From NCBI GenBank assembly GCA_019894795.1, contig JAGXNV010000006.1, positions 1 to 33,314 of the forward strand: a DNA stretch of 33,314 nt. The letters run 5' to 3'. The notes under the pieces are model-generated. The model saw nothing but the letters and a program-made list of their open reading frames with translations. It was not told the DNA's origin and did not search any database. Position numbers and translations under genes: made by a program. Positions 14,052 through 32,647 of the stretch are shown piece by piece. The stretch's first letter is position 1; each line of letters begins with the position of its first letter. The DNA is from Candidatus Heimdallarchaeota archaeon. Lineage in GTDB: Archaea > Asgardarchaeota > Heimdallarchaeia > Heimdallarchaeales > Heimdallarchaeaceae.

Positions 14052-14090
14052 TCCTCTTTTTTTCAAACTCTTGTTTTGTTGATATGTTTA

Positions 14091-14347: not shown

Positions 14348-14356
14348 TATATATAT
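14348..14356 (+). promoter_or_regulatory. TATA box of receptor 4
   Basis: TATATATAT is centred about 26 nt before 14378, favouring the ATG at 14384 over the TTG at 14375. Confidence 0.6.
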
Positions 14357-14383
14357 TAATTTAAACATTAGATATTGACTAAA

Positions 14384-15985: not shown

Positions 15986-16005
15986 AATTCTAAGGAGGGG
16001 TTCTT

Positions 16006-16038
16006 ATGTTCTTTGGAGGTTTTTCTTTTTGTCTCTAA
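16006..16038 (+). CDS. Possible ten-residue peptide after receptor 4 (MFFGGFSFCL)
   Basis: The frame ATG to TAA has AAGGAGGGG six to seven bases before its ATG and starts 20 nt after the receptor stop. The product is the same as at 13919 apart from the last residue. The Shine-Dalgarno here is the strongest of the set. A purely transcriptional role (T-rich end of the receptor mRNA) cannot be excluded. Confidence 0.35.
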   Translation: MFFGGFSFCL

Positions 16039-16087
16039 ATTTCTTTTGACCTCTTGTATTTCCTTCATCTTTGATTATTGATAGACT

Positions 16088-16180
16088 ATGAACCAATTAT
16101 TTGATCCTGAAGACGGAGACGACGCAATATCCCCTCCACTTTGGTGCCTTAGAAAAGAGATGATATATGATGAAAACTAA
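16088..16180 (+). CDS. Micropeptide H (EDGDD type), slot 1 before receptor 5, with extended C-terminus
   Basis: This 30-residue peptide is MNQL plus FDPEDGDDAISPPLWCL and a charged tail (RKEMIYDEN). Related copies stop right after W.P; here one C seems to be missing from TGGTGCCC, so Pro and the stop are lost and translation runs on, overlapping the next peptide by 14 nt. It has no leader of the usual kind upstream: the DNA before it is the receptor-4 3' flank (ATTATTGATAGACT), as for the other slot-1 copies. It may be active or drifting. Confidence 0.55.
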   Translation: MNQLFDPEDGDDAISPPLWCLRKEMIYDEN

Positions 16181-16238
16181 ATATGACCCAGATGAAGGAG
16201 ACGAAGGCATTTTACCCCCTGCGTGGACACCAAATTAA
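16167..16238 (+). CDS. Micropeptide I (DEGDEG type), slot 2 before receptor 5
   Basis: This 23-residue peptide is MMKT plus KYDPDEGDEGILPPAWTPN. It is the near twin of peptide E. The start overlaps the end of peptide H, so translation may be coupled. The class differs from that of the proximal peptide J. A T-rich segment follows the stop. Confidence 0.7.
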   Translation: MMKTKYDPDEGDEGILPPAWTPN

Positions 16239-16288
16239 TCTTTTTGCCTTTTTTCTTTTTCAAATTCTTATTTGATGAAGCTTCTACT

Positions 16289-16377
16289 AGTAAAACTGTT
16301 TTCTTGTCAGTTTCTTTCTTGTAGTCTTTTAGCATGTTCTAGCACTTCTAAGAGTAACTTATTAGAGTGATGCAAAA
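16289..16377 (+). promoter_or_regulatory. Conserved promoter/leader of micropeptide J
   Basis: AAACTG (16293) and CAGTTT (16308) form the inverted repeat. Then come TTTCTTTCTTGTAGTC, TTTTAGCATG and GAGTGATGCAAAA before the ATG. Confidence 0.65.
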
Positions 16378-16446
16378 ATGAACCAGACATATGATCCGGA
16401 AGACGGAGACGAATCCTTTACTCCTCCATTGTGGTTTCCTAATTAA
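16378..16446 (+). CDS. Micropeptide J (EDGDES type), proximal to receptor 5
   Basis: This 22-residue peptide is MNQT plus YDPEDGDESFTPPLWFPN. It keeps the EDGDES.TPPLW core of the proximal peptides of receptors 3 and 4, but its first residues (MNQT) are those of slot-1 genes. This suggests that ends and cores recombine. GTGATG lies 5 nt before the ATG. Confidence 0.75.
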   Translation: MNQTYDPEDGDESFTPPLWFPN

Positions 16447-16476
16447 CCACTTTTTTTATTTTATATTATCTTCTAC

Positions 16477-16485
16477 TTTATATAT
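16477..16485 (+). promoter_or_regulatory. TATA box of receptor 5
   Basis: TTTATATAT is centred about 37 nt before the ATG at 16518, giving an expected leader of about ten bases. Confidence 0.55.
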
Positions 16486-16517
16486 CAATTTGAGGATAAG
16501 ATTCCGAGTAGGTTTGG

Positions 16518-18104: not shown

Positions 18105-18124
18105 AACTCAGGTGAGGGATTCTT

Positions 18125-18157
18125 GTGTTCTTTGGGGGGTTTTCCTTCTATTCATGA
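18125..18157 (+). CDS. Possible ten-residue peptide after receptor 5 (GTG start, -FFGGFSFYS)
   Basis: The frame begins with GTG after a GGTGAGGG motif and reads FFGGFSFYS to TGA. Against the copy at 16006, the codons for Gly, Gly, Ser and the third Phe pair differ only in third bases (GGA/GGG, GGT/GGG, TCT/TCC, TTT/TTC), keeping FFGGFSF. Silent change with conserved residues is what coding selection would give, though over a very short span. Confidence 0.35.
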   Translation: MFFGGFSFYS

Positions 18158-18196
18158 GATTTTTTATATTACTGACGTTAGTTATAGCTGAGTATT

Positions 18197-18580
18197 ATGG
18201 TTTTGGTAGTATTAATCTATATAGGCTCAGTTATGATAATCTTGTGGGGTATTGGCCATATCTTTCCTACAAAGAGTATTGTGAAAGGTTTTGGAGTACT
18301 TTCAGATGACAATAAGAAAATAATAACTATGGAATGGATAGCCGAAGGTATGGCTTTGATATTTCTAGGTCTTCTCCCATTGTTTACTGTTATTTTCAGT
18401 GATAGTAATGAGAGTGCTTTCTACATTAGCATATTGGCTTCAGCAGTTATGTTGATTGTAATGGCTATTCTTTCTGCTTTTACCGGTGCAAGAACATCTG
18501 TCTTACCTATGAAAATGTGTCCATTCATTAAAACTCTTGGAGCAATTTTGATGATTCTTGGAGTAGTTATACCGATGTAA
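18197..18580 (+). CDS. Small membrane protein (four hydrophobic segments)
   Basis: This 127-residue protein has four hydrophobic segments: residues 1-20, about 45-66, 73-95 and 108-127. Between the first two is the segment GIGHIFPTKSIVKGFGVLS and DDNKKIITMEWIAEG. I do not recognise the family. A TTTTTATATT box at 18161-18170 and the ATG at 18197 give a nearly leaderless mRNA and fix the start. It stands alone at the right edge of the repetitive island. Confidence 0.7.
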   Translation: MVLVVLIYIGSVMIILWGIGHIFPTKSIVKGFGVLSDDNKKIITMEWIAEGMALIFLGLLPLFTVIFSDSNESAFYISILASAVMLIVMAILSAFTGARTSVLPMKMCPFIKTLGAILMILGVVIPM

Positions 18581-18630
18581 TGTCTCCTCTTGTCTTCTTA
18601 AGAAAATTAGAGAGCAAAATATTATAGACA

Positions 18631-18655
18631 CCCATATCAACATGTTGATGATGGG
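18631..18655. promoter_or_regulatory. 25-nt near-perfect palindrome
   Basis: CCCATATCAACA and TGTTGATGATGGG are arms of an inverted repeat with a perfect 14-bp core (ATCAACATGTTGAT) and a single unpaired base. It lies 51 nt after one membrane-protein gene and about 50 nt before the TATA-like box (18702-18712) of the next. A regulator binding site is likely; a terminator hairpin is the other option. Confidence 0.5.
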
Positions 18656-18734
18656 ATGATAACTCATGGTATGATTCAATTTTTCTTCTTTTTAGTTAAC
18701 AATATTTAAAAGAAACTTTTACTGATTGCCAACT

Positions 18735-19145
18735 ATGTGGGACATTCTTATCGGTATTCTTCTGATACTTCACGGGCTTATTTTTATCATGTTTCTAGTT
18801 TACGTTAAATTACCTGAAGAGAATCAATATTTTGGTTGGTCAAGAAAATCATGGTTATTAGATAAAATTCTAGGCGAGAAAGTAATAAAGATCATAGGAT
18901 TAGTTCTTTGGTCCTTTATTATAGGCGGGTTCGTAGCTTCAGGTATAGTGTTATTGACAGGAAGTGATGTTTGGAGTTTGTTAACTATCATTACTTCGTT
19001 TGTATCACTTCTCTCATTCTTGCTCTTCTGGCCTGATTTACAACCAAAACCCAAAAACTTCATCCTTGGTCCTATCATCGCAGTAGGCGTAATAATTGCT
19101 CTGCTCATATTTCAATGGCCAACAGCTGCAATATTGTTTGGGTAA
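18735..19145 (+). CDS. Small membrane protein (four hydrophobic segments)
   Basis: This 136-residue protein starts at the ATG (MWDILIGILLILHGLIFIMF); a TTG at 18726 is possible but would lie upstream of the transcript start predicted by the ATATTTAAA box near 18702-18712. It has four hydrophobic segments, with the charged loop KLPEENQYFGWSRKSWLLDK after the first and FWPDLQPKPKNF before the last. No family is recognised. It may share control with nothing else: the 25-nt palindrome just upstream is its own. Confidence 0.7.
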   Translation: MWDILIGILLILHGLIFIMFLVYVKLPEENQYFGWSRKSWLLDKILGEKVIKIIGLVLWSFIIGGFVASGIVLLTGSDVWSLLTIITSFVSLLSFLLFWPDLQPKPKNFILGPIIAVGVIIALLIFQWPTAAILFG

Positions 19146-19288
19146 GAAGATCTCCATTTTAATCTCACAATCTTATTTGAGATTTTTCTTGTTTTTTCAA
19201 AAATTACTCAGTTTAGATCCCGGGTCTATTTCCAGTGGAATTTGATAAAAATATAGAACAGATCATCAGAAAAACTCTAATTCCCTCT

Positions 19289-19624
19289 CTATTCCTTAAC
19301 TGCGTATCTGTCTTTGTCTTCAAAAAATTCCATACTAGCGTAACCTGCATATATTTTTGCAGAATGGGTTTCTCCTTCAAGTACGTAGAAGCGATCTCCT
19401 TTGGTGTATGTATACTCTTTACCTTCAACAATTATCTCAAGTTTCCCTTCTAAAACTATCCCCCACTGAGCTAAATGTGCATGTGCAGAAACTTCTGCAT
19501 CTTGGCTGAAATGCATGAAAATAATTTGATGATTCTTATCTTGGGATAAATAAGCTGTAATTCCGGGTATAGAAATATCTGCTTCTGGTAGCTTTCTTAT
19601 TGCTTCTGGAAATATCTCTTTCAT
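19289..19624 (-). CDS. Cupin-domain protein
   Basis: This 111-residue single-domain beta-barrel protein matches the small cupin_2 type. The first cupin motif is SAHAHLAQWGIVLEG (two His of HxH, with Gln where Glu is usual), followed by KLEIIVEGKEYTYTKGDRFYVLEGETH with the His of the second motif. It could bind a metal and act as a small-molecule isomerase or sensor, but no substrate can be inferred. It follows the molybdopterin enzyme on the same strand after about 160 bp, so co-expression is possible though not shown. Confidence 0.85.
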   Translation of the reverse strand: MKEIFPEAIRKLPEADISIPGITAYLSQDKNHQIIFMHFSQDAEVSAHAHLAQWGIVLEGKLEIIVEGKEYTYTKGDRFYVLEGETHSAKIYAGYASMEFFEDKDRYAVKE

Positions 19625-19782
19625 GATAATTATAGAGTTGAGTGACGATTTATAAGGATTAATACACGTAAGTGTGTGCTAAAATTGGTTTTGATAATCT
19701 TACCATATACAATTTACGTGGTAAGAATATTTCAGCTATTGATTTTAACCATCCAGCGTAAAAAACATTGCTTTTGCTTGAT

Positions 19783-21741
19783 TTATTTTGCACTCTTCAT
19801 TTTAACTTTCGCTGAGTTGAATCTAGGTCCACTTCCTATAACTTGTGGTGTGCCATCTGTTAAAATATTGAGGGGATTACCTTCTATCCCTGTTAAAGGT
19901 CTAGGTGACCAAAGCACTCCTGAGATAGTATTACTGGTTACAACAGCATTAATTGTTACCTTACCCTGATTATTAAACAACATTACCTTATCATTGTTTT
20001 TTATATTCAATCTCTTTGCGTCTTTGGGGTTTATCCAAACAATCTGTGGTATTGGACCGTAAACATCTATGAATTGTGAGTGAGTATAATTAGGAATAGA
20101 GCTGTTAAGTAACACAAACCAACCTTCGTCATTTATAGTGGGTAATTGTTCGGGTAAAGGATTAAATCCTAATTCTTCAGCTTCAGAGGAGTAGAATTCT
20201 ATCTTGCCTGATGAAGTCTGATATTCATTCATAGGTTTAAGTTTAAGTTTCAATTCTTTTCCTTCTCTAAGATCATCAAGAGTTCCATTTTGAAATGATG
20301 ATCCAAGAGTTTTATCAAGCACTTGCCAAGAATCTTCAAAGAGCCATTCTTCTTCCAACCCCAACTCTTCTGCAAGACTTTGCATCAAAGACACCTCATC
20401 CTTACTCTCCCCTAATGGCTCTATGGTTTTGTTAGATATCCTTGTGTAAAGATGGTGGTCGGAAAAGTTGAGATCATCCTTCTCCAAATAAGTTGAGGCA
20501 GGTAGGATAACATCCGCAAGATAAGCAGTTTCTGTCCAATGAGTGTCATGAACAACAGTAAAAACATCATTCTTAGAAAAGCCAGCTCTTACATCTTTCA
20601 GATTAGGTAAAGTAACTGCAGGATTACATCCATATACAAAAACAAACTTAAACTTACCAGAAACAAGTTCGGATCCTACCGAAACATGATGAACTATGTT
20701 GATGTTTTTAGTTGTTAATCTACTCCCATTTAGATAATCGAGGTCAATTTCTCTTCCTCTTGAATCGCTATAATGGAACCCTCTATTAAATCCAAGCAAA
20801 GCTGGAAGAAGAGAAACGGCTCTTGCAGCTTCAGCTCCATGAAAAGATTTCTGTAAACCAAGACCTATCATAAATGTTCCATGCTTAGCATTAGCATAAA
20901 TCGAACCTAGCTTTACAATATCAACCCAACTTACTCCAGTAGTATTCTCTAAACGTTCAGGAGTCCAAGATAATACTTCCTCCTTGTATTGTCGAAAGCC
21001 AATTGTGCTTTTTTCAATAAAGTCAGTATCAATATGATTATTCTCTATCAGGTATCTTGCTATACCATAAGTTAAAGCAACATCGCTTCCAGGTCGGGGA
21101 CTTACCCACATATCAGCTGCTTGAGATGTCTCACTGTTTCGTGGATCTATAGAGACGATGGTTGTTCCTTTGTCCTTTCTAGCTTGATGACTCAATGTCC
21201 ACATATGAGATGAGCTTACCTTGGCATTGTTACCCCAGAAGATTATGACTTCCATATCAAGCAATGCTTCTGGTTGTACTCCATAGGCTAGACCATAATG
21301 AAGGCCTATTCCTTTATGACCTGAAGCACTACATAGAGCATAATCTGTTTTAGTTGCTCCAAGAGCGTTCCATAATCTTCGAGGATAATGCGATGCAAGA
21401 AATCCTTGGTTACCTGCATAGTCCAAAAGTAAAACAGACTCTTCTCCATGTGTCTGAATAGTTTCTTGAAGCTTATTTGCTATGAAACTAATAGCTTCTT
21501 TCCATGACACACGTTTGAATTGATCACCATTGTTGTTTCTTAATCGTATATGAGGATAAAGCACTCTATCCTTACTGTATACTCTCGCGGGATCACCCCT
21601 TCCTCTAGGGCATAGAAAACCTTGAGTTACAGGATTAGCTGTACTACCTTTGACGGAAACTATCTTGTCATCTTTCACTTCTACATCTATAAAGCAAGTA
21701 TCAGGACAGTCTCGATGGCACACAGTCTTAATATTAGTCAA
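19783..21741 (-). CDS. Molybdopterin-dependent oxidoreductase, catalytic subunit
   Basis: This 652-residue member of the DMSO-reductase family has Cys8, Cys12, Cys16 and Cys44 (CHRDCPDTC and CPRG) to hold an N-terminal 4Fe-4S cluster. Molybdopterin-binding segments follow, including IFWGNNAKVSSSHMW and TTIVSIDPRNSETS, and a C-terminal dinucleotide-binding domain (WINPKDAKRLNIKNNDKVML). Cys137 in ALCSASGHKG is the likely metal ligand position. The protein has no Tat signal, so it is probably cytoplasmic. No electron-transfer or membrane subunit lies beside it, so the substrate (formate, sulfur compound, hydration or other) cannot be assigned. The start is TTG; no ATG fits the conserved N-terminus. 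Confidence 0.9.
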   Translation of the reverse strand: MTNIKTVCHRDCPDTCFIDVEVKDDKIVSVKGSTANPVTQGFLCPRGRGDPARVYSKDRVLYPHIRLRNNNGDQFKRVSWKEAISFIANKLQETIQTHGEESVLLLDYAGNQGFLASHYPRRLWNALGATKTDYALCSASGHKGIGLHYGLAYGVQPEALLDMEVIIFWGNNAKVSSSHMWTLSHQARKDKGTTIVSIDPRNSETSQAADMWVSPRPGSDVALTYGIARYLIENNHIDTDFIEKSTIGFRQYKEEVLSWTPERLENTTGVSWVDIVKLGSIYANAKHGTFMIGLGLQKSFHGAEAARAVSLLPALLGFNRGFHYSDSRGREIDLDYLNGSRLTTKNINIVHHVSVGSELVSGKFKFVFVYGCNPAVTLPNLKDVRAGFSKNDVFTVVHDTHWTETAYLADVILPASTYLEKDDLNFSDHHLYTRISNKTIEPLGESKDEVSLMQSLAEELGLEEEWLFEDSWQVLDKTLGSSFQNGTLDDLREGKELKLKLKPMNEYQTSSGKIEFYSSEAEELGFNPLPEQLPTINDEGWFVLLNSSIPNYTHSQFIDVYGPIPQIVWINPKDAKRLNIKNNDKVMLFNNQGKVTINAVVTSNTISGVLWSPRPLTGIEGNPLNILTDGTPQVIGSGPRFNSAKVKMKSAK

Positions 21742-22056
21742 AGAATCATCTCGGTTTATTCTTTAATCGGCTATAATATCAAACATGAAGATGATTTTAA
21801 ATCTTCTTGAACTCATGTTTCAGAGGTTTAGATATAACTAGCCCAGATAATCTTGTTATAAAAAGGAGAGGAAATAGAGGATTAGTTTCCTTCGAGTGAT
21901 GCAACATAATCCTTATGCCCTCTCTTCACCACCCTCTACTTCCAATAGTTAAACGATAATATCCTAATTAAACTACTATGAAATAAATGGACAAGTAATC
22001 TTTTTCTCTCTTTGAGAAGGTTTTTATCACAACAAGAAAAAGTTAAAGTGAGAAAA
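21742..22056. other. Intergenic region with a 40-nt hairpin
   Basis: Between the divergent molybdopterin and pyrophosphatase genes, AAACATGA (21781) and TCATGTTT (21813) pair. An inner AGATGATTT/AAATCTTCT pairing has one mismatch, making a long imperfect hairpin. A GTTATAAAA box near 21854 is followed by GAGTGATGCAACAT, reminiscent of the peptide leaders. The 17-codon frame from 21899 does not have the peptide core, and I do not call it a gene. Confidence 0.4.
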
Positions 22057-22602
22057 ATGGAAGATAAAGATTCTTTGTGGCACGAAATTAAAGCAGGTCC
22101 TAATCCTCCTGAAGAGGTTTACGCTATAATTGAGAACCCTAAAAATAGTAAGAATAAGTATGAATTAGGAAAAGATGGGGTAATTTATTTAGATCGCGTT
22201 TTGCATTCATCTGTCCATTTTCCAGGTGATTATGGTTTAATCCCTCAAACATATTTTGAAGATGGCGACGCACTGGATATCCTTGTTCTCATTTCTGAAC
22301 CAACTTTTACAGGATGTGTTGTAGCTGCCCGGCCTATTGGTGTTCTTAGGATGAGAGATGAGAAAGGACATGATGACAAGATTTTGGCTGTCGCTTCAAC
22401 AGATCCTTTCTATCACAGCGTTTATAGCTTAGACGATGTTTATCCTCACACACTTAGTGAAATTGCAGAGTTTTTCAAAACTTACAAAGGCTTAGAACAT
22501 GGTAAAAAGGTAGAGGTTTTAGGCTGGGATAAAAAAGAGGAAGCCTTCAAGAGCATAACTCACTCTATGAAATTGTACCAAGAATTATTCGATAAAAAAT
22601 AA
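22057..22602 (+). CDS. ppa: Inorganic pyrophosphatase (family I, soluble)
   Basis: This 181-residue enzyme hydrolyses pyrophosphate to two phosphates in the cytoplasm. Family I landmarks are present: NPPEEVYAIIENPKNSKNKY at the N-terminus, VHFPGDYGLIPQT, the DGDALDILV metal-binding site (the family pattern usually has Pro or Glu where Ala stands here), and HDDKILAV. The ATG at 22057, 5 nt after GTGAG, gives the usual family length. A TTG at 22012 would add a 15-residue tail not typical of the family. It is 109 bp ahead of the PEP carboxykinase gene on the same strand. Confidence 0.92.
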   Translation: MEDKDSLWHEIKAGPNPPEEVYAIIENPKNSKNKYELGKDGVIYLDRVLHSSVHFPGDYGLIPQTYFEDGDALDILVLISEPTFTGCVVAARPIGVLRMRDEKGHDDKILAVASTDPFYHSVYSLDDVYPHTLSEIAEFFKTYKGLEHGKKVEVLGWDKKEEAFKSITHSMKLYQELFDKK

Positions 22603-22711
22603 GCAAACTTATTTTCTCCCGTCTTATTTCATTGTCATAACGGAATATTCATAATTCAAATCTATAGGAGAAGCACAATAGAATTTACAATTAGTTAGGA
22701 GAACGCTTATT

Positions 22712-24601
22712 ATGGCTCTCGAAAAATGGATAAACAATGAGGATTTAGAGAAACTACTTGCTCTCGAAAATCCTAAAGCTGAAAAGGTAATTGAACAATT
22801 TCTTACACTTTGCAAACCTGCTAAAGCAAGAGTTATTGATGATTCACCTGAAGATATTGCTTATGTTCGTCAACTTGCCATTGATAACGGTGAGGAAATG
22901 AAATTGGCAATAAATGGACATACAATTCATTATGACGGTTTTTATGATCAAGCTAGGGATAAAAAGAACACTCGGTTACTTGTTCCAGCTGATGAAAAGG
23001 AAAAATATGGTCAACATATTAACACCGCTGATCGTGATGAGGGATTAAAAGAAGTTTTAGAGATTATGGATGGGGTAATGGAAGGAAAAACTGCTCTCAT
23101 AAGGTTTTTCAGTCTAGGTCCAACCAAATCAAAGTTTTCACTTCTTGCTCTTCAAATTACAGATTCTGCTTATGTAGCTCATTCTGAGGATATTTTGTAT
23201 AGAATGGGATATGAGGAATTTAAGCGCAAAAAAGGTGACGATTTCTTCTACTTAATACACTCAGCAGGTGAACTTACAGATAAAAATGTTACAAAAAACG
23301 TTGATAAAAGAAGAGTATACATCGATTTAGTAGAAAATCGTGTTCTTACAGTTAACAACCAATATGCAGGAAACAGTTTAGGATTAAAGAAACTTGCTTT
23401 AAGATTAGCGATTAACAAAGCTGTAAATGAAGATTGGCTAACTGAACACATGTTTATTGGTGCTGTTTGGCCTCTGGATGAAAGTAGAAAAACGTACTTT
23501 CTTGGAGCTTTTCCAAGTGCTTGTGGTAAGACTAGTACAGCTATGATCCCAGGTTTTACAATTGTTGGAGATGATATAGCTTATCTGAGGTTAAATGAAG
23601 TCGGTGAAGTTAAAGCTGTTAACATCGAACAAGGTATTTTTGGGATTATTAAAGATGTTAATCCAGAAGATGACCCAGAAATTTACAAAAGTCTACGTAC
23701 ACCAAGAGAAGCCATCTTCTCAAATGTATTAATCAATGAAGGAACACCTTATTGGTTAGGAATGGGGAAACAAGTTACTGTTCCAGACAAAGGTATCAAT
23801 TGGACTTCCTCCAAGCTTGGAGATTGGGAAGCAGGAAAACATTTCGACGATGAAGGTAATGAGTTCAAATTCTCTCATCCAAATGCTAGGTATACCATTA
23901 GAATTGAAGGACTTGAGAATGCTGATGAAGCAATTCATGATCCTGACGGTGTCAAAGTTTCAGGAATCATCTATGGAGGTAGAGATTCTGATACATCTGT
24001 CCCTGTTTATGAATCATTCTCATGGGAACATGGAGTATATGTAGGAGCGTCAATTGAATCTGAAACTACTGCAGCAACACTAGGTAAGGCAGGTGTTAGA
24101 GCACATCAACCAATGGCAAACATTGATTTCATCGTTGTACCACTTGGTAAATATTTACAAGCTCACTTAGATTTCGGTAAAAGAATCGATGATGCAAAAC
24201 GTCCTCGTATATTCTCAACCAACTACTTCCTTAAGGATGACAATGGTCTTTATTTCGATGAAATCTTGGACAAAAAAATTTGGTTGCTTTGGGCTGAAGG
24301 TAGAATTCATGGAGAGTATGAGGCTGTGGAAACACCAATAGGTCTCATTCCAAAATATGAAGACATAGCTAAACTCTTCAAAGGAGTATTTGATGTTTAC
24401 TATGGTAAGGAGAGATATGAGGCTGAATTCTCAGTAAGGATACAAAAATTCCTTGAAAAAATCGATAGAATTAAAACAATCTTCCGCGGAGAAAAAGATG
24501 TTCCTGAAAAATTCTTTGTAGAATTAGAAGAACAAAAGAAACGTCTTCTAGTTGCTAAAGAGAAGTTTGGTTCTGATATTTTATCTCCCTTTCTTTTTTA
24601 A
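22712..24601 (+). CDS. pckG: Phosphoenolpyruvate carboxykinase (GTP)
   Basis: This 629-residue enzyme interconverts oxaloacetate plus GTP with phosphoenolpyruvate, CO2 and GDP, linking the C4 acids to gluconeogenesis or, in reverse, to anaplerosis. The GTP-type family is recognised by FFSLGPTKSKFSLLALQITD, the kinase P-loop FPSACGKTSTAMIPG near residue 270 with its active-site Cys, and SGIIYGGRDSDTSVPVYESF with WEHGVYVGASIESETTAA. Length is close to the family norm. GGAG lies about 11 nt before the ATG. The preceding pyrophosphatase may be co-expressed. Confidence 0.95.
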   Translation: MALEKWINNEDLEKLLALENPKAEKVIEQFLTLCKPAKARVIDDSPEDIAYVRQLAIDNGEEMKLAINGHTIHYDGFYDQARDKKNTRLLVPADEKEKYGQHINTADRDEGLKEVLEIMDGVMEGKTALIRFFSLGPTKSKFSLLALQITDSAYVAHSEDILYRMGYEEFKRKKGDDFFYLIHSAGELTDKNVTKNVDKRRVYIDLVENRVLTVNNQYAGNSLGLKKLALRLAINKAVNEDWLTEHMFIGAVWPLDESRKTYFLGAFPSACGKTSTAMIPGFTIVGDDIAYLRLNEVGEVKAVNIEQGIFGIIKDVNPEDDPEIYKSLRTPREAIFSNVLINEGTPYWLGMGKQVTVPDKGINWTSSKLGDWEAGKHFDDEGNEFKFSHPNARYTIRIEGLENADEAIHDPDGVKVSGIIYGGRDSDTSVPVYESFSWEHGVYVGASIESETTAATLGKAGVRAHQPMANIDFIVVPLGKYLQAHLDFGKRIDDAKRPRIFSTNYFLKDDNGLYFDEILDKKIWLLWAEGRIHGEYEAVETPIGLIPKYEDIAKLFKGVFDVYYGKERYEAEFSVRIQKFLEKIDRIKTIFRGEKDVPEKFFVELEEQKKRLLVAKEKFGSDILSPFLF

Positions 24602-24701
24602 TTTCAATTAAAACATTCAGGAGATGAATTCCATCTCCCTATTTTTCAATTAATTTTGTGGTGCATATATATTATAGAATTGTACACAATATTAGTTCAA
24701 G

Positions 24702-24935
24702 ATGACGATAGCATATCAAACTGATAATAAACAGAGCAGGAAAGTGAATAAGTTTGCAATAATTAATTGTATTATTGGAATACCAACTATTTCACTTTTA
24801 GCATTTTTAATGATTAAGGGGTTGTTAGCAAATTACATTGTCACATCTTCGATAGCTCTTAGTTTTCTTGTACTTGGTGTGAGCTATTCAATTTTCAAAA
24901 TCGTGAAGGAAAAAAAGGAAGCACGAAAAACATGA
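24702..24935 (+). CDS. Small two-segment membrane protein
   Basis: This 77-residue protein has hydrophobic segments at about residues 18-38 and 43-65, a basic N-terminal part (NKQSRKVNK), and a Lys-rich tail (KIVKEKKEARK), so both ends are probably cytoplasmic. A CATATATAT box at 24664 gives a start within a few bases of the ATG. Family not recognised. Confidence 0.6.
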   Translation: MTIAYQTDNKQSRKVNKFAIINCIIGIPTISLLAFLMIKGLLANYIVTSSIALSFLVLGVSYSIFKIVKEKKEARKT

Positions 24936-25743
24936 AAAAATGATTGTTTTAAACTGTTCTAGAGTGTATGTAACACCTTCAAAACTAGTGTTTGGAGCTA
25001 AAAATAGATTTTTGTCGAGAATAAGAACTTAGAACAAGAAAAATTGGCAATTTTACTATTACAAGCTCACAATCTCGATATATTTTCTCTTGTACTATTT
25101 ATGTCGGGACTTGTACAAAGGAATAAACTTTCAAGAAAACAATTGCTCATTATGCAAATCAGAATTACTATTAACTACAGAACTAAATAAAAGGCAGGAC
25201 ATTATCCTAAGGAATCAATATTAACAATACGACAAATATAGGAGATATATGCTTATACAAAATAAAAAATGGCAGAGATCAAAGTGAGTACAAAATGAGT
25301 AGATATTAAGTAGAAGTACTATTGTGTGCAACTACAACAAATGAGTTGAAAAATAGATGTAAGAAACTAAAATCAAAGTAAGATTCATGGTAGATATTTT
25401 GATGAAAACAAGTAGAGAATAGAGAAAGAAAAAACAAATAAAGTAAGTAATAAACAAAAATGTTTACAATAATAATAAGTATCTGTAAATGTTTAAACAG
25501 AATAACTTTTTTTTCAAGCAGACAATAGAGAATTGCACAAAAGAAAGAAAAAACTGGTTCTGAAAAAATCAAATAAAGAAATTCATAAGTAAAAGCAAAA
25601 TGATGATTAGAACAGCTCAATAAAAGGTATTAAACAAAACGAGAAAATGTAATAATACAATGGTAATACAATAAGTATACGTGATGATTACTAGGTTATA
25701 AGGTTGAAAATGTTTATAATGATGACAAAAGCCTCGTAAAAAT
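24936..25743. other. 808-bp A-rich intergenic region, possible gene remnant
   Basis: No convincing gene is seen on either strand. From 25008 to 25190 an open frame without an ATG start reads a protein-like stretch (LAILLLQAHNLDIFSLVLFM), which may be a decayed gene. After 25300 the plus strand is strongly A-rich with AGTAAGTAA-type simplicity; the 104-codon minus-strand frame at 25306-25620 there is low-complexity Phe/Leu/Ile and looks non-coding. TATA-like GTTTATAAT at 25712 belongs to the next gene. Confidence 0.45.
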
Positions 25744-26274
25744 ATGATTGAAGAAGTTAGAGAATTACTTAAGCGAATTGATCAGATCATTGATTCGGAG
25801 TCGAGAAGGTTGAATGACCAAATTGATGAGCTGAAGGAAAAACTAACTGATTTTAAAGAATCAGGAGAGAATTTTACTTCTATTAGAGATGAAATCAAAA
25901 ACCTTACTTCACAATTGGATGAAATTACTTATGAGCGAGATGGATTGCAGAAAACTGTTGAGAAACTCTCACCTCTTGAACCTAAGGTTAGGGAATTAAG
26001 TGAGCTAGTAAAGAATCTGACTCTTCAACAAACGGGATATATTTTTACAATTAAGGTTATATCAAATTGGATACCCAGTCAAAAAGAGAATATTGATGTC
26101 CTTGTTGCTTTAGCTTCTTCACCAAATCATACAAGCACGTTAACAGAGTTACATAACAAAACAACTATTCCTGAAGTTACATTAAAGAATAGAATCCTTC
26201 CTATTCTAGAAGATAATTCATTAATTAAGACAGAAAATAGAGAAATAAAATTGACGATAAAAGAGAATGAGTAA
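25744..26274 (+). CDS. Coiled-coil protein with C-terminal winged-helix-like domain
   Basis: The 176-residue protein has a long charged heptad region (residues about 1-95, e.g. DQIDELKEKLTDFKESGENF and LTSQLDEITYERDGLQKTVE). A C-terminal part follows (VLVALASSPNHTSTLTELHN, VTLKNRILPILEDNSLIKT) that fits a winged helix-turn-helix. This suggests a dimeric DNA-binding regulator, perhaps of the pilin-like gene that follows 66 bp later. A TATA box at 25712-25720 leaves almost no leader, so the ATG is firm. Confidence 0.65.
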   Translation: MIEEVRELLKRIDQIIDSESRRLNDQIDELKEKLTDFKESGENFTSIRDEIKNLTSQLDEITYERDGLQKTVEKLSPLEPKVRELSELVKNLTLQQTGYIFTIKVISNWIPSQKENIDVLVALASSPNHTSTLTELHNKTTIPEVTLKNRILPILEDNSLIKTENREIKLTIKENE

Positions 26275-26340
26275 TCAATATATCAATCGTGTAAGAAGTT
26301 CCGCAAACTTAAATAAGACAAATTGTTAAACATAATATAC

Positions 26341-27153
26341 ATGAAGAAAATGCTCAAATCTCGCCGAGGAGTATCAAGTATTATATCGACATTAGTAATT
26401 TTTACAGTAATGGTCTCTGCCTTAGGTTTAGCTTTTTCTCAAATTATTCCATCTTTAGAAAGGTTTCAAACACAAAGTGACTTGACAGCAGCAACTAATA
26501 CGTTTTTAGCATTTGATTCAGAAATTAAAACTTTGATCAACACCCCTGATAATTCTTCAAGTGTAATAAGATACAATCTTGACACCGGTATTCTAGATTT
26601 GAAACAAAATAGAGAAATATCCCTGATGATAAACTCGGGAGGAGTTGCTCTATTGAATCGATCCTATTTTTCAGGAGAGATTGAATATAAAATTGAAGGA
26701 AATTTCGCAGGGTTAGGTGGAGCAATATACGACTTTGGCAGCCCACTACTACTTGTTTATTCGCTAAATAGAACAGCACAAATGATGAATATTGTTCATC
26801 AAACGTCCGATGGGTATAAATCTATTCAACTGTATTATAGTGTTTTTGTGAGCATTGAAAATACTAGTGAAACTGACGTAGAAGTTAATTTTATGATAAT
26901 ACATCTTAACACTTCAAAATCTACTGATGGGCAAGGAGAGTATTTTCCAATAATAAATACTCAAGATAAGATCCAGATAGTGAAACTAAGTCAAATTATA
27001 GAAAGTATATATCTAGGTGAGCAAAATGACGAGCTAACAGTAGAAGCTCAAACTACAGGTTTCTCACAGAATATTGCATATACATTGGCACCTCCTGTGT
27101 TCTCATTAACTGTTAATATCATACACATAAACATCGATTTTCGTACCGCATAA
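26341..27153 (+). CDS. Pilin-like secreted protein with class III signal peptide
   Basis: This 270-residue protein has an archaeal prepilin-type N-terminus: KSRRG followed by VSSIISTLVIFTVMVSALGL, with predicted cleavage after Gly10 by a PibD-like peptidase. The remaining 235 residues are beta-rich with several N-glycosylation sequons (NSS, NRS, NRT, NTS). It may build or sit on a pilus or act as a single anchored surface protein. The CTTAAATAA box at 26308 supports the ATG at 26341 rather than the TTG at 26323. The gene is larger than most pilins. An ABC exporter pair lies downstream. Confidence 0.75.
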   Translation: MKKMLKSRRGVSSIISTLVIFTVMVSALGLAFSQIIPSLERFQTQSDLTAATNTFLAFDSEIKTLINTPDNSSSVIRYNLDTGILDLKQNREISLMINSGGVALLNRSYFSGEIEYKIEGNFAGLGGAIYDFGSPLLLVYSLNRTAQMMNIVHQTSDGYKSIQLYYSVFVSIENTSETDVEVNFMIIHLNTSKSTDGQGEYFPIINTQDKIQIVKLSQIIESIYLGEQNDELTVEAQTTGFSQNIAYTLAPPVFSLTVNIIHINIDFRTA

Positions 27154-27215
27154 GTTAGAGTCAGTGTTTCTATATACGACACAAAAGAATATAATAGAGA
27201 GAGAGTATGTCTAAC

Positions 27216-27293
27216 TAGCGAAGTTTTCTCGTGTGGGGTTGGACTTATTGGTGTAAGACCCTTGAATGATAATCTCACTTCGAAACTTCGCTA
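27216..27293 (+). ncRNA. Candidate structured RNA or regulatory hairpin
   Basis: TAGCGAAGTTT (27216) and AAACTTCGCTA (27283) are perfect 11-bp complements around a 56-nt interior that can pair further (TCG.GTG with CAC..CGA, GGGT with ACCC). A GAATATAAT box about 25 nt upstream would start transcription at the left arm. It does not fit a tRNA (no T-loop in place, no D-stem). It could be a small RNA or the leader/terminator of the flanking genes. Confidence 0.35.
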
Positions 27294-27387
27294 CCCTATT
27301 TTTTACTATTATACTCTACTCTGTAAAAACTTAGGAACAATAATACAAATAAATACTTATTATCACTTAATAGCTGGTAGGATTAAG

Positions 27388-28239
27388 ATGAATCAAATCG
27401 TTCGCTTCGCTAATGTATCAAAAAAATTTCAATTATTCTGGGAGGAATTAGTTATACTTAAGGAAGTAAACTTAGAAATAGAGAGAGATGAATTGGTATT
27501 ATTATATGGTCCAAGCGGAAGTGGGAAAACAACACTATTGAACCTTTTAACTGGTCTTTTACACCCCAATGAGGGAGAAATAGAAGTAGCTGGATTGTAC
27601 ATAGATTTAATCGCAGACAGAGAAAAAGCTGATTTTCGCTCAAACTACCTAGGAATCGTTTTTCAAGAAAATAATCTAGTGTCCACACTTACTGTAACAG
27701 AAAATATAATTCTCTTCCAAGAGTTATGTGGTTTTGATGGAGAGGAGGAAGAAAGAGAAAGCAAGATAAACAAATTGCTAAAGAGATTGAAGATAGATAA
27801 CAGAAAGGATAGTTTCCCAGCGCAGTTAAGCGGGGGAGAAAAGAAACGTGTTGCCATAGCAAGAGCATTGTCCAATAACCCGTATATCCTAATTTTAGAT
27901 GAACCTACAGGTAATTTAGATCGTGAATCAGCTGATATGCTGTGTAATCTAATTCAAGAAATATTCATAACAACAGACATTACAATCATTATTTCGTCGC
28001 ATGATCCTAAAATGAAGGAAATAGCATCGACAGTATATCATGTAGGAGCACAATCTGTAACACTTGAAGAAGAACATCCTGACAGGAGAAAGAAGCAAGA
28101 CACCAAATATAGATCAATTAGTTCTAAGGAGATGCAAATCGAAGAACCTGAACTTAATGATGATTATACAGAACATGAAATAATGAATATGACAGAGGAA
28201 GAAATCGACTTCATGGAAGGAGAAGAACAGGAAAATTAG
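27388..28239 (+). CDS. ABC transporter ATP-binding protein (LolD/MacB type)
   Basis: This 283-residue ATPase has Walker A GPSGSGKTT (residues 41-49), Q-loop VFQENNLVS, signature LSGGEKKRVAIARAL, Walker B YILILDEPTGNLD and the H-loop IISSHD. The pattern is that of the LolD/MacB/FtsE group, which works with FtsX-like permeases such as the one encoded 19 nt downstream. About 55 residues beyond the usual end form an acidic, charged tail (EEPELNDDYTEHEIMNMTEE). The start is set at the ATG matching the family N-terminus (MNQIVRFANVSKKF), with an ATAAATACT box upstream. It probably powers substrate extraction or mechanical signalling, not import. Confidence 0.92.
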   Translation: MNQIVRFANVSKKFQLFWEELVILKEVNLEIERDELVLLYGPSGSGKTTLLNLLTGLLHPNEGEIEVAGLYIDLIADREKADFRSNYLGIVFQENNLVSTLTVTENIILFQELCGFDGEEEERESKINKLLKRLKIDNRKDSFPAQLSGGEKKRVAIARALSNNPYILILDEPTGNLDRESADMLCNLIQEIFITTDITIIISSHDPKMKEIASTVYHVGAQSVTLEEEHPDRRKKQDTKYRSISSKEMQIEEPELNDDYTEHEIMNMTEEEIDFMEGEEQEN

Positions 28240-28258
28240 ATAGGTTAGTGGTATAGAG

Positions 28259-30070
28259 ATGATAGGACAACTGAAATTTGCTTGGATTGATTTCAAGAGA
28301 TCTTTTCTTAGTTCATTATTCACCTTCATTAGCCAGATAATAACCTACTCAGCAATTACAATCAGCATAGGTTTATTCTCACTAATGAAAGCTAATCTCC
28401 AAATGTCGCTGGATTATGTTTATTACAGTTCTTACACACTAATTACAATATTTTTCATTGTGGTTTGTATAATAATTGGAGTAATTGTAACTAGAAGGTC
28501 AATAGATCTTAAGTTTCAAAGTCAAAAAGATGATATCGCTGTGATGAAAAATGTGGGAGGAAAAAGTAGGTGGATATACAGTTATTTTCTCTTCAATCAG
28601 ATTTTGACAGCAACGATAATGTTGGTTCTAGGAATGATTATAGGATTAATTGTTCTAGTTATAACAGGTGTTTCGTTTGGGTTCGGGAGCATATTTAACT
28701 ATGTAGGGTTTCTCCCAATACTAGGAGGAAACTTAGTAATATTGGTTTTTTCTTACATTAAAGCGCATTATACAATATTGAAATTCATAAGCGAAAAGGA
28801 TTTTGAGATATCTTCAAGTAGTTTAAGTAATTACAAAAGCATCTTTGAATTTGACGCTTTAATAAACAAATTCAATTCATCAGTAAAATTAGGGGTGAAA
28901 AATTTCTTAAGATCAGGAAAAATTCTAACAAGTTTGTTATTTAGTTTCTTTCTGATATTTTCTTCAATTTCCTTTGTATTGGGACCATTGACAGTTGCTG
29001 AAACACATACAGCAAATCTTGATAATAGATTTGGAAACTATACTTATGCTATAGGTTCGCCTGAAGTTATAAGCTTCTTTAATCAAAGTTTACCGGTTCA
29101 AGAGTATAGTAATAGTTCCTATACAGGATTAGGGAATGATCTTACTTACTTCTATGAAACCTCACTATCATCACAATTGCTAACAGAATTACAAGAGACA
29201 GGAGTCGATTATCACAAGTATTTCATTTCAAAACTGCAGATACAAGAACTCTCAGGGCATGATATAGTGAATGAGGTTTACATGCCTATAGGTCAAAATC
29301 GCAAAGTATATGCTACTATAATAGGATATGAAGATATTAATTTCGAAGAAAATGAATATATAGCAGGAACCAACCCAAGACTTTCTAAAAATGAAGTTTT
29401 AATTGGTGATACCTTGGAAGCTAAGTTTTTTGAGAATAGCACACTTCAAAAATTGAAACTTCATGATGATTCAAATGATTACCAAATTAGTGGAGCAGTA
29501 ATAGATAGTTTTGCTGCAGGATACAGTGTCTATTGTCCATTGAATAAATTAATCTCAGATGGAGTTTCTAATGGTACTAATTTACTAATGTTAGAAAACT
29601 TAGATGGAGCAGTTTATGATGAAATAAGTGAGATTCTTGAAGGATATGGATATCAAATAGTAGATATAAAAAGTATGATCGAACAAAATCTATCAAATTA
29701 TAACAGTTTTACTACTATGTTTAAAGTGCTCGGAGGGATATTGTTCGCAATCTTTTCATTCCAGGTAATAGTATATTCATTCCTGTATTTCCTAACATAT
29801 CGAAAGGACTTCGAACTACTTTATCGGCTAGGAATAAAAAAGAGAAGCATATATGGATCAGTTATTACGGCAATCCTTCTACAAATTATTCCAGGTATAG
29901 CATTAGGAAGCTATTTCGGAGCAATAATAGGAAGATATTTTCTTGTACCGTACGCAGTATTATCAAACTTTGCAGTAATAATTATATCAGTAATAGTAGG
30001 ATTCATACTAATAGCAACAACTACTTCAATCTATGCAAGTAGAAAAGGGTTGGAAAAAGTGATAACATAG
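28259..30070 (+). CDS. FtsX-like/MacB-type ABC permease
   Basis: This 603-residue membrane protein is the partner of the ATPase just upstream. It has two FtsX-like membrane bundles: an N-terminal one (residues about 20-170, with the coupling segment KFQSQKDDIAVMKNVGGKSR) and a C-terminal one (residues about 490-595). The helix LLFSFFLIFSSISFVLGPL near 225-245 leads into a large extracellular domain of about 240 residues. The end, IYASRKGLEKVIT, is a typical FtsX C-terminus and recurs as an isolated remnant at 32286-32330. Function is probably lipoprotein, lipid or peptide export; whether it serves the nearby micropeptides is speculation. Confidence 0.88.
   Translation: MIGQLKFAWIDFKRSFLSSLFTFISQIITYSAITISIGLFSLMKANLQMSLDYVYYSSYTLITIFFIVVCIIIGVIVTRRSIDLKFQSQKDDIAVMKNVGGKSRWIYSYFLFNQILTATIMLVLGMIIGLIVLVITGVSFGFGSIFNYVGFLPILGGNLVILVFSYIKAHYTILKFISEKDFEISSSSLSNYKSIFEFDALINKFNSSVKLGVKNFLRSGKILTSLLFSFFLIFSSISFVLGPLTVAETHTANLDNRFGNYTYAIGSPEVISFFNQSLPVQEYSNSSYTGLGNDLTYFYETSLSSQLLTELQETGVDYHKYFISKLQIQELSGHDIVNEVYMPIGQNRKVYATIIGYEDINFEENEYIAGTNPRLSKNEVLIGDTLEAKFFENSTLQKLKLHDDSNDYQISGAVIDSFAAGYSVYCPLNKLISDGVSNGTNLLMLENLDGAVYDEISEILEGYGYQIVDIKSMIEQNLSNYNSFTTMFKVLGGILFAIFSFQVIVYSFLYFLTYRKDFELLYRLGIKKRSIYGSVITAILLQIIPGIALGSYFGAIIGRYFLVPYAVLSNFAVIIISVIVGFILIATTTSIYASRKGLEKVIT
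30028..30059 (+). repeat. Direct repeat, left copy, at the permease 3' end
   Basis: The 32 bases here match 32288-32319 at 30 of 32 positions (shared AGTAGAAAAGGGTTGGAAAA). The two copies bracket the micropeptide K / receptor 6 / micropeptide L module. Confidence 0.6.
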
Positions 30071-30208
30071 TTCATTAGGTCTTTAGAACAAAGTAATTTT
30101 ACTGAAACTTCTGCAATCTAAACTCGTTATTTTCATTAGTGTCTTCTTTTTCTTTTGAGGTTTAATATTCTCCTTACATATGAATATAAACAATTCAAGT
30201 GATGCAAT

Positions 30209-30274
30209 ATGAAACAATGTTATGATCCTGAACCTGGTGACGATGATATTGGCCCTCCTCTATGGTGGCCATAG
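30209..30274 (+). CDS. Micropeptide K (EPGDDDIG type), convergent with receptor 6
   Basis: This 21-residue peptide is MKQC plus YDPEPGDDDIGPPLWWP. AAGTGATG lies 4 nt before the ATG. The core is the same as that of peptides D and L. It is on the plus strand, tail to tail with receptor 6 (72 bp between stops), whereas L precedes that receptor on the minus strand. Its upstream region lacks the AAACTG/CAGTTT leader; a TTTAATATT box near 30162 could serve. A run of eight T follows the stop. Confidence 0.7.
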   Translation: MKQCYDPEPGDDDIGPPLWWP

Positions 30275-30346
30275 ACAACTTTTTTTTCTTATTAAAAAAA
30301 CATAGATGAAAAACTACAAAGAAAATAAGAACTCCTCTCTCGAGCT

Positions 30347-31921
30347 CTATACTGTTTTTGTTAACTCCGTTTGCTGCAATTGCAAGTAATCCAGTAGTTT
30401 ATTTTCTAATCGGGAGAACCCATAAAGCCTGCATTTCTTAATGGCCATATATTGGAGAGCTGGACCAAGAGGATCTCCGCACTTATACGCCCCTACCTGG
30501 ATGAGCGCTTCCATAAAAACACGTAATTCCAAAACCTCTATTTGATTGAGACGATTCTCGTATTTTTGTAAGAGAGGGTAAATTTCTAAATGCCGCTGTT
30601 TTTTAAAAAGCTCTTGAGCTAGCAACAAATCAGAATATGCTTGCTCAATAAATGTACAGCCTTTCTTTTTAGACCCCTTGTTTAGTATTTTGAAGTAAGA
30701 ATCAATTTTCTTTTTATCATTGTCTTCCAATCTTTCTTTAGTATAGTCTATGATTTGTCGAATTCGTTGTAAACTAGCATTATCTGATAATGACAGTTTT
30801 TCTAGTTGTTTCTTATCTAATTCTGCATTAAGAATGAATTCACTTAGAAGCACAGAATCGTTGTAATTGTCTTCAATTCCTCGATGTATTTTCTCTATAA
30901 GAGATTGTACCTTGTCTGCATTAAAATCATATAGGCGAGAGTAAACATAAAATTTTATTAAATTTAATGTGTGAGGAACTTGCCTCTTGCTGTAGATATC
31001 CATGTTCTTAATAAAAAAATCATCTTCTAGCAAATCTTCTATTTTCTTAATATTTTCGTAAGATTGCTCAATTTTACCTTTTAAGGCTTGAACAATAGCC
31101 AAATGTGATAACAATCTAGCATAGTAATAGGAGTAATAACTACTCAGCTTCAGTTTTGAATTCATGAGCAGATAACATTCATTTAATAGATATTCTGATT
31201 GCCCCAAATTATGCACCAGTAATTGACCCACTCCAGCAAGATAATACGCTATGGCTTGAACATCTTCTGGTAAATGTGTAAAGAGATATTTGTTGTTGAA
31301 GAGCTGTTGAGAGGTCATTATTGCTTTTTCTTTATTTTGTGTTTGCTGATAGATTATACTTAAAATGCCTAAAGATTGTATTAAACTTCTATAATATCCT
31401 TCTTTAAAGAAATATTTTGAGCATTCTTCTAAAATTGGACCACTTTTGATACTATGATCTTCTAGCCAATATTCAATTGCTAATGAGTAGTTACAGATAT
31501 AATAGACATATTTTTCAGGATTAGAAGTCTTCCTTATGTGATTAATTGATTCCTCAAGCGCTTTTCTACTTTTTTCTTTATTGCCTTGTATTTTCTCAAT
31601 ATACCATTCAATATTGTAAGATAGAGCTAAACCCTCAGAATACTCAATTTCAATGGATAATTCTTTCATTTCTTGAACAATTTCAACCATTTCAGGAATT
31701 TTATCCAATAAATGTTCAATTTGAGAAATTTTGATTTCATAAATTTTTATTAAAGATTTTTTATCATTAAGCAATCTGCATTTTTCTACAGTTTTTTCTA
31801 ATAAGTTAAGATTGTTTATTTCATATTTTTTATTGGAGAATATAACTCTTATTTTATCAAGAAATCTCTCCAAATCCGCTCTTAATGTAATTTCATTTAA
31901 TTCTCTAATCAGTTCTTCCAT
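30347..31921 (-). CDS. Receptor 6: TPR-like protein paired with micropeptide L
   Basis: This 524-residue helical protein is the sixth paralogue, about 12 kb from the tandem array and inverted. Its central block (IYQQTQNKEKA, VQAIAYYLAGVGQLLVHNLG, LIKFYVYSRLYDFNADKVQS) is of the receptor-2 type. Its N-terminal block (MEELIRELNEITLRADLERF) has no close partner here. The C-terminal block is conserved (IQVGAYKCGDPLGPALQYMA, then IKKCRLYGFSRLENKLLDYL). SHLAIVQALKGKIEQSYENI is a TPR-like unit. The TATA-like TTTAAATAT (minus strand, 31951-31959) favours the ATG at 31921 over GTG 31933 or TTG 31936. The 3' flank keeps GAGGAGTTCTT, but the FFGGF frame is decayed. Confidence 0.82.
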   Translation of the reverse strand: MEELIRELNEITLRADLERFLDKIRVIFSNKKYEINNLNLLEKTVEKCRLLNDKKSLIKIYEIKISQIEHLLDKIPEMVEIVQEMKELSIEIEYSEGLALSYNIEWYIEKIQGNKEKSRKALEESINHIRKTSNPEKYVYYICNYSLAIEYWLEDHSIKSGPILEECSKYFFKEGYYRSLIQSLGILSIIYQQTQNKEKAIMTSQQLFNNKYLFTHLPEDVQAIAYYLAGVGQLLVHNLGQSEYLLNECYLLMNSKLKLSSYYSYYYARLLSHLAIVQALKGKIEQSYENIKKIEDLLEDDFFIKNMDIYSKRQVPHTLNLIKFYVYSRLYDFNADKVQSLIEKIHRGIEDNYNDSVLLSEFILNAELDKKQLEKLSLSDNASLQRIRQIIDYTKERLEDNDKKKIDSYFKILNKGSKKKGCTFIEQAYSDLLLAQELFKKQRHLEIYPLLQKYENRLNQIEVLELRVFMEALIQVGAYKCGDPLGPALQYMAIKKCRLYGFSRLENKLLDYLQLQQTELTKTV

Positions 31922-31950
31922 GGAGTTAATCACCAAAGGTGAAAAACATT

Positions 31951-31959
31951 ATATTTAAA
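31951..31959 (-). promoter_or_regulatory. TATA box of receptor 6
   Basis: TTTAAATAT on the minus strand is centred about 26 nt before position 31929, just ahead of the ATG at 31921, as for the other receptors. Confidence 0.55.
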
Positions 31960-32049
31960 CACTATAAACAATTCTATAATAATTGCATTTAAATTGCATG
32001 TGAACTCTAATTATACATATATAAAAATAAAAAATAAATAAAGGAATCC

Positions 32050-32115
32050 TTAAGGTCTCCATAAGGGGGGGCCAATATCATCGTCGCCGGGTTCAGGATC
32101 ATATTTAGTCTTCAT
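32050..32115 (-). CDS. Micropeptide L (EPGDDDIG type), proximal to receptor 6
   Basis: This 21-residue peptide is MKT plus KYDPEPGDDDIGPPLWRP. It differs from peptide D, which precedes receptor 2, by one residue only (Arg for His). AAGTGATG lies just upstream of the ATG; an in-frame ATG two codons earlier (ATGACAATG) is a possible alternative start. It stands about 130 bp before the receptor, on the same strand, as in the tandem array. Confidence 0.75.
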   Translation of the reverse strand: MKTKYDPEPGDDDIGPPLWRP

Positions 32116-32205
32116 TGTCATCACTTGTTAAAGTCATACATATAGTATTAACAAGCTACTAAAAGACACAAGGAAAGAAGTTGACAGAATAATTGTATTT
32201 GTAGA
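32116..32205 (-). promoter_or_regulatory. Diverged copy of the micropeptide leader before L
   Basis: Read on the minus strand it holds CTGTCAACTTCTTTCCTTGT, then TCTTTTAGTAG and AAGTGATG, in the same order as the plus-strand leaders. The inverted repeat is not preserved. Confidence 0.5.
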
Positions 32206-32285
32206 GAATTCTTAACAAACAGCTCAGAATATGCAAAATAATATATTTTATGAATAATTAGAAATGTAAAAAAATCAATCTAACA

Positions 32286-32330
32286 CCAATTTATGCTAGT
32301 AGAAAAGGGTTGGAAAAAGAAATTATATGA
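32286..32330 (+). pseudogene. Remnant of an FtsX-like permease C-terminus (right direct repeat)
   Basis: The frame reads PIYASRKGLEKEII to a stop, almost the last residues of the permease that ends at 30070 (SIYASRKGLEKVIT). Nothing permease-like precedes it. It is either a duplicated end left by insertion of the K/receptor 6/L module, or the tail of a second permease gene destroyed by that event. Confidence 0.55.
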
Positions 32331-32344: not shown

Positions 32345-32626
32345 TCATGAAATGGGAACAAAATCCTTTGTTAGCATCTTGTTAATTTCTCTTTGAGGTA
32401 CCTCTTTACTTCTAAGACCCGCAACAAAGACATTAAGACAATCTTTACAATAGACTTTCTTGATTCTAGTATTATAGGTCAAGGGAGACATAAATTTACT
32501 CTTGCCACAGATCGAGCATCTATCTTGAATACCTGCTGTAATATCAGTTGTACAATCTTCGCAGTAATTAACCTTACCCTGGACAGGACGTCCGCATTTA
32601 GCACAAAAACGTACTCTAGTAACCAT
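32345..32626 (-). CDS. Small zinc-ribbon protein
   Basis: This protein has 93 residues from the ATG at 32626, chosen because a GTTTAAAAT box lies at 32654-32662 on this strand; ATG 32647 would add seven residues. Four Cys pairs make two zinc-binding modules: CAKC with CEDC (a short zinc ribbon) and CSIC with CKDC. The C-terminus (REINKMLTKDFVP) is helical. Such proteins act in transcription, translation or as adaptors; no closer assignment is possible. Confidence 0.75.
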   Translation of the reverse strand: MVTRVRFCAKCGRPVQGKVNYCEDCTTDITAGIQDRCSICGKSKFMSPLTYNTRIKKVYCKDCLNVFVAGLRSKEVPQREINKMLTKDFVPIS

Positions 32627-32647
32627 AATATCGAGATTTCCGGTCAT

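Follow-up and report, generated by a model that had tools for sequence, protein, structure and literature searches.

Firmicutes and their phages are known to use peptide signals that act through intracellular TPR receptors. In the RRNPP (or RRNPPA) systems of Firmicutes, which include Rap-Phr, NprR, PlcR, Rgg, PrgX and AimR, a short peptide gene lies beside the gene of a TPR-type intracellular receptor, and a genome may hold many paralogous pairs with duplicated peptide genes. The modules described here resemble them in both respects. Unlike the RRNPP systems, however, they are archaeal, show no detected sequence homology to them and encode receptors without a recognisable DNA-binding domain; their peptides are acidic, of the form DPxxGD....PPxWxP, with no signal sequence seen; and the modules stand between copies of gene ends and between inverted peptide genes. 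Even-Tov et al. 2016 reportedly described duplication-driven divergence and transfer of Rap-Phr pairs. The idea shared with that model is that duplication and horizontal movement of signalling pairs are a source of new specificity; it is not known to include inversion of receptors or the duplication of gene ends where pairs insert.

In the open-access literature searched we found no report of archaeal peptide signalling with intracellular TPR receptors. Text searches of two RRNPP papers turned up no archaeal system and no inversion in one (PMC12700828) and neither archaea nor recombination in the other (PMC9765709). Invertible DNA segments, among them invertons, fimS and pneumococcal hsdS (PMC5903667, PMC9993118, PMC4948785), offer another comparison, as in invertons too a gene segment stands between inverted repeats in both orientations. 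Here, by contrast, it is the peptide genes that serve as the repeats, an invertase was not found, and the two orientations are known from different species only. Integrative elements in gene 3′ ends likewise duplicate the 3′ end while sparing the gene, with clean sites in relatives, whereas the cassette described here has no integrase and no attachment sequence common to its carriers.

The window, that is, the whole stretch of DNA analysed, is an entire contig of 33,314 nucleotides, and the nearest named relatives of its genome are Heimdallarchaeota assemblies. It carries, in order, a tandem array of five receptors (5877-18104), an ABC ATPase with an FtsX-type permease (27262-30070), the module of receptor 6 and a zinc-ribbon gene. 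The features around receptor 6 are as follows.

27262-28239, plus strand: ABC transporter ATPase (Pfam ABC_tran, 3.4e-36), adjoining the permease upstream in relatives
28259-30070, plus strand: FtsX-family permease, intact (Pfam FtsX, 4.2e-7)
30027-30059 (similarity to 30068), plus strand: permease 3′ end, copy 1 of the direct repeat, 31/33 identical to 32287-32319
30071-30208, plus strand: leader of peptide K, with direct homology to the DNA 3′ of the permease in G006, G003 and G014
30209-30274, plus strand: peptide K gene, translated as MKQCYDPEPGDDDIGPPLWWP, with the family motif found in about 90 distinct peptides
30275-30326, no strand assigned: post-K sequence of G003/G014 type (alignment z = 11.5 for G003, 8.4 for G014)
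30298-30350, minus strand: array-type post-receptor element behind receptor 6 (z = 8.3 against the element behind array receptor 3)
30347-31936, minus strand: receptor 6, 529 aa, all-helical and TPR-type (AlphaFold2 pLDDT 89), with a 74% orthologue in G006
32050-32115, minus strand: peptide L gene, intact, translated as MKTKYDPEPGDDDIGPPLWRP, upstream of and co-directional with receptor 6
32116-32286, minus strand: leader of peptide L, matched at this site in the same orientation by G006 (81%) and G003 (80%)
32287-32319 (similarity to 32328), plus strand: permease 3′-end remnant, copy 2 of the direct repeat, with orthologous remnants in G006 and G003
32345-32647, minus strand: double zinc-ribbon gene (Pfam DZR_2, 1.3e-6), the conserved right neighbour in 19/22 family genomes

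Judging from where homology to its relatives begins, the true start of the ATPase is probably near 27382. The permease has orthologues of 84-86% identity in G018, G006, G014 and G003. Receptor 6 is without a recognisable DNA-binding domain and has an alternative start in an internal ATG at about 31921. An Rfam search of the window gave no match, and the reading of an RNA element was dropped. Elsewhere in the window, the array (5447-16446) holds two or three peptide units per receptor, several of them degenerate (for instance, the one at 5530 lacks an ATG and that at 13983 is broken). About 9 kb of other genes (18112-27261), read as molybdopterin oxidoreductase, pyrophosphatase, PEP carboxykinase and others, part the array from the ABC genes; in G018, G014 and G006 the ATPase has a receptor or peptide as its immediate upstream neighbour. 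The window's own genome has further modules on other contigs, at L139 (G000:C327) and L144 (G000:C110), including a second-subfamily receptor with two convergent peptide genes.

The sequence-only reading had reported that the last 32 bases of the permease gene recur, 30 of 32 matching, beyond the module. The repeat is real, and its size required correction: the ungapped core spans 33 positions in the window, 31 of them identical (30027-30059 and 32287-32319), and the copy reaches 71 nt in G006. A repeat search of the window extended the tract to 30027-30068 against 32287-32328 (36/42, 86%). The runner-up among plus-strand matches within the window scored 21/33, none of 365 sampled 33-mers outside the array had a second copy this good, and a genome-wide search placed the permease end at two sites only (E = 6e-8). 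The frame that had been noted, IYASRKGLEKEII followed by a stop, is present, and peptide K (plus), receptor 6 (minus) and peptide L (minus) do lie between the copies, with receptor 6 inverted relative to the five array receptors.

Orthologous remnants occur in G006 (71 nt, 89%, including permease 3′ flank) and G003 (35 nt, 89%), where the permease frame reads IYVSRKGL-stop and IYARRKWLEKVIPDN-stop, respectively. The remnant thus decays differently in each of three species, indicating that it is not retained coding sequence. Its left edge falls at the identical base in the window, G006 and G003, with no permease sequence ahead of it, and 32127-32286, just before it in the window, bears no resemblance to the permease body. 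Since the remnant is common to the window, G006 and G003, it is older than these species, and the insertion by all appearances is older than the species of the window.

A comparison of the permease locus in relatives, proposed in the same reading as a way to find an intact site, did reveal such sites. The permease and the zinc-ribbon gene are neighbours in 19 of 22 family genomes, with a gap of 10-104 bp in 13 of these. In G018, with the permease reading rightward, the site is clean and the gap is 10 bp; clean sites in more distant relatives have gaps of about 20-100 bp. Filled sites differ in content. Following the permease, the window has K, receptor 6 (minus), L (minus), the leader, the remnant and the zinc ribbon, and G014 has a peptide, a second peptide, a receptor (plus), an inverted-peptide fragment and the zinc ribbon. 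G006 and G003 share one order: a peptide, a receptor on the plus strand (74% to receptor 6 in G006, 49% in G003), an inverted peptide (MIKQKYDSEPGDDDIGPPLWWP in G006), a leader, the remnant, a HEAT-repeat-like gene and the zinc ribbon. The HEAT-repeat-like gene fills the gap between remnant and zinc ribbon in these two genomes (L060 in G006, L064 in G003) and is absent from the window and G018.

Two further genomes carry gene-end copies at this site. In G017, the final 67 nt of its own permease recur behind its own receptor (86.6%, E = 1e-19); that permease is only 54% identical, and the gene-end duplication is independent of that in the window clade. In G015, a lone peptide unit stands in the gap between permease and zinc ribbon, flanked by two gene-end fragments (L073). 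One is a partial copy of the 3′ end of its own zinc-ribbon gene (92% to G020), and the other consists of 29 nt resembling the permease end of the window clade (83%, E = 6e-5). The similarity of this foreign fragment suggests transfer between species. The two cases together indicate that duplication of a neighbouring gene end recurs at this site and is not a one-off accident.

Phylogenetic analysis places the clean G018 as sister to G003, which carries cassette and remnant (support 97/100 in the permease tree and 95/99 in the downstream-DNA tree). Because its sister is filled, secondary loss of the insert in G018 is favoured. The HEAT-like gene is missing from G018 too, so its clean site is not accounted for by recombination that merely cut out the DNA between the repeats, and a clean allele may have replaced the site. 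No undisputed never-filled site was found in any species inside the clade. We rejected the idea that permease and remnant are plainly fused at the G018 junction: its left part matches G003 at 29/29 positions, and the 22 nt on the right are non-discriminating, with 14/22 matches both to the window remnant and to the G014 permease. The window remnant enters the zinc-ribbon flank just as the G018 permease does, and owing to this continuity the remnant may be the original permease end and the present permease end the copy. The window is the first branch of the clade in the permease tree (83/89) and the downstream-DNA tree (83/90), both with modest support; the ATPase tree instead joins it with G006 (96/96).

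Our main reading, to which we give a probability of about 0.62, is that of an old cassette insertion behind the permease with duplication of the gene end, followed by recurrent gain and loss and by later recombination that turned the receptor. Peptide/receptor cassettes, found in one family of Heimdallarchaeia, would land repeatedly in the gap between the permease and the convergent zinc-ribbon gene. In the ancestor of the five-species clade to which the window belongs, a cassette would have entered directly after the permease stop codon, an event that we infer, and about 33-71 bp of permease end and flank would have come to stand on both sides. The direct repeats would then decay, and the insert could be lost, as in the clean G018 and the partly lost G014. 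The ancestral cassette would have comprised two facing peptide genes with the receptor in between, and receptor segments would be exchanged or reversed via recombination between inverted peptide genes and other conserved module ends, so that receptor 6 is read from L in the window and its counterpart from K in G006. Homologous recombination, not an integrase, would be behind these changes. Counting against this model, homologous recombination would have little length to work with in repeats of 33-71 nt (86-94%), and the cassette has no identified recombinase.

The orientation of receptor 6 is opposite to that in the relatives with a receptor at this site. Window 30366-32126 matches G006 8919-7155 in reverse (80% over 1.77 kb), and the flanks, 29900-30273 and 32050-32318, match G006 in direct orientation. 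A reversed core between direct flanks points to a turned segment between inverted peptide genes; peptide L is an inverted repeat of peptide K (53 nt, 85%), and the leaders of the two have diverged. In both the window and G006, the C-terminus ...WRP goes with the 5′ side of the receptor and ...WWP with its 3′ side. A one-step flip between K and L was rejected, as the left junction lies beyond K and an array-type element stands behind receptor 6. This junction is marked by the overlap of the post-K sequence (30275-30326), whose counterpart in G003 and G014 stands before a plus-strand receptor, with the array-type element (30298-30350); the two share about 18 nt. In the simplest reading, an array-type peptide-receptor unit, joined to leader L, may have replaced an older plus-strand receptor. 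The reversed receptor 6 would stem from later recombination between inverted module copies.

A clean inversion was found elsewhere. Receptors of a second subfamily, about 20% identical to receptors 1-6, lie between a 23S rRNA and a HerA-like gene, flanks that were named from their own sequence and not by database match. The rRNA side can be seen in 11 other genomes, and in these the receptor is directed away from the rRNA and meets a convergent peptide gene at its 3′ end. G001 (L138, 1875-3918, with L124, L126 and L127) has syntenic flanks on both sides of a reversed receptor. The segment between inverted repeats is thus met in both orientations between species, G001 against the 11. The G001 arms are identical inverted repeats of 114 nt, each holding a whole peptide gene, MYDPEPGDEDTLPPHWFP. 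A simple assembly error behind this inversion is less likely because the assembly k-mer given in the contig name, 141, exceeds the 114-nt repeat. In G004, G011 (decayed), G014 and G018, too, receptors are flanked by a second, inverted peptide copy or by what is left of one.

Whether these changes of orientation serve any function is a separate matter. There is about an even chance that they do not act as a switch and are neutral side effects of recombination among highly repeated genes: tandem duplication has made many repeats, and at the permease site the 85% identity of the K/L arms over only 53 nt, with diverged leaders, indicates that flipping there is infrequent. Against this stand the inverted peptide copies that flank receptors at the permease site and in five genomes (G001, G004, G011, G014 and G018), together with the perfect identity of the G001 arms. 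A reversible switch, in which peptide genes acting as inverted repeats flip the receptor between two promoter/peptide contexts while cassettes move and leave a copy of a neighbouring gene end, is a doubtful proposal that we put forward tentatively.

The peptide genes are abundant and show signs of selection. About 90 distinct peptides were found, 72 of which carry the 15-residue core (Y/F)DPxxGDxxxxPPx(W/Y). Over these 72, mean codon entropy is 0.42, 0.43 and 1.34 bits at positions 1, 2 and 3, and this third-position wobble indicates that the peptides are translated and under selection. A peptide gene adjoins most surveyed receptors. Receptors occur in 21 of 228 genomes of the phylum, all of one family, with up to 11 receptor matches per genome. 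Peptide and receptor distances are correlated (Mantel r = 0.505; 0/5000 permutations as high, the best 0.186), and mapping the four peptide classes onto the receptor tree takes 5 changes, where shuffled classes take 25. This covariation shows long joint inheritance; it fits a pairing of peptide and receptor, which is not proof of binding. More receptor homologues, of 20-25% identity and without a recognisable peptide gene, were seen at L130-L137.

The AlphaFold2 model of the receptor (pLDDT 89) is an all-helical TPR-like superhelix, and some family members have weak TPR Pfam matches. Rap and NprR are among its many TPR fold matches, at a TM of about 0.5 by target length, a weak likeness to RRNPP receptors given how widespread TPR folds are. 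No RRNPP-type Pfam domain was found, and a PDB profile search returned weak generic TPR matches only. We infer that the peptides act as exported pheromones and the TPR proteins as their sensors; export through the neighbouring ABC permease is a guess, and such a permease is near modules only at some loci. If the signalling role is true, relatives of the eukaryote ancestor would possess a communication system open to testing. This set of peptides and receptors is diverse, co-varying and confined to one Asgard family, and the scars left by gene ends, like the inverted peptide genes, reveal how pairs of this kind may multiply, move and swap partners.

The peptides could instead be cis-acting stalling leader ORFs (PPxWxP-stop) or toxin-antitoxin parts and not exported signals, as they are short, without a signal sequence, contain Pro-Pro and another Pro close to the end, and in most cases immediately precede the receptor. 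We regard this as unlikely, since peptide genes are also convergent to the receptor (14 subfamily-2 loci) or alone (G015, G013), two or three may accompany one receptor, each with its own leader, and peptide class follows receptor phylogeny.

The direct repeats at the cassette ends, the intact permease and the clean site in a sister species are also what an integrative element would leave, with the permease 3′ end as attachment site, an integrase acting in trans, the repeats as attL/attR and G018 as the excised attB. We hold this to be quite improbable. The genes between the repeats in the window are those of peptides and a receptor alone, without a site-specific integrase; G017 and the window clade have not duplicated the same sequence; at other places, solitary modules are flanked by other repeats or by none; and the receptor has no match in phage records or IMG/VR, a result on which the reading of viral carriage was dropped as well. 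Our main reading, cassette insertion with gene-end duplication, also accords with one half of the sequence-only reading, as shown by the clean sites, the remnant in three species and G017; its other half, in which a second permease was replaced by the module and left its last bases, is very improbable despite a window remnant that ends in frame with a stop, as a search found no second permease in 22 family genomes, three species share the base at which the remnant begins and have nothing of a permease ahead of it, and G017 shows a like pattern from its own permease end.

Of 67 receptors, 22 have direct repeats on their flanks that lie outside the peptide genes, against none of 81 control positions. 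The reading of all such repeats as insertion scars was rejected: in many of these 22 cases the repeat is the post-receptor element, which tandem duplication has spread through the arrays, so the count overstates insertion scars. The clearest site-specific scars are those of the window clade and G017. The post-receptor element was also considered as a third conserved small gene and rejected; it is open at a few loci and broken in the window. At L044, a solitary module is surrounded by an identical 29-nt direct repeat (572-600 and 2814-2842), TTGACCCCGGGTCAATTTCCAGTGGAACA. A dispersed palindromic element, TCTTACCAC...GTGGTAAGA, lies near several modules (L047, L051, L054 and L033).
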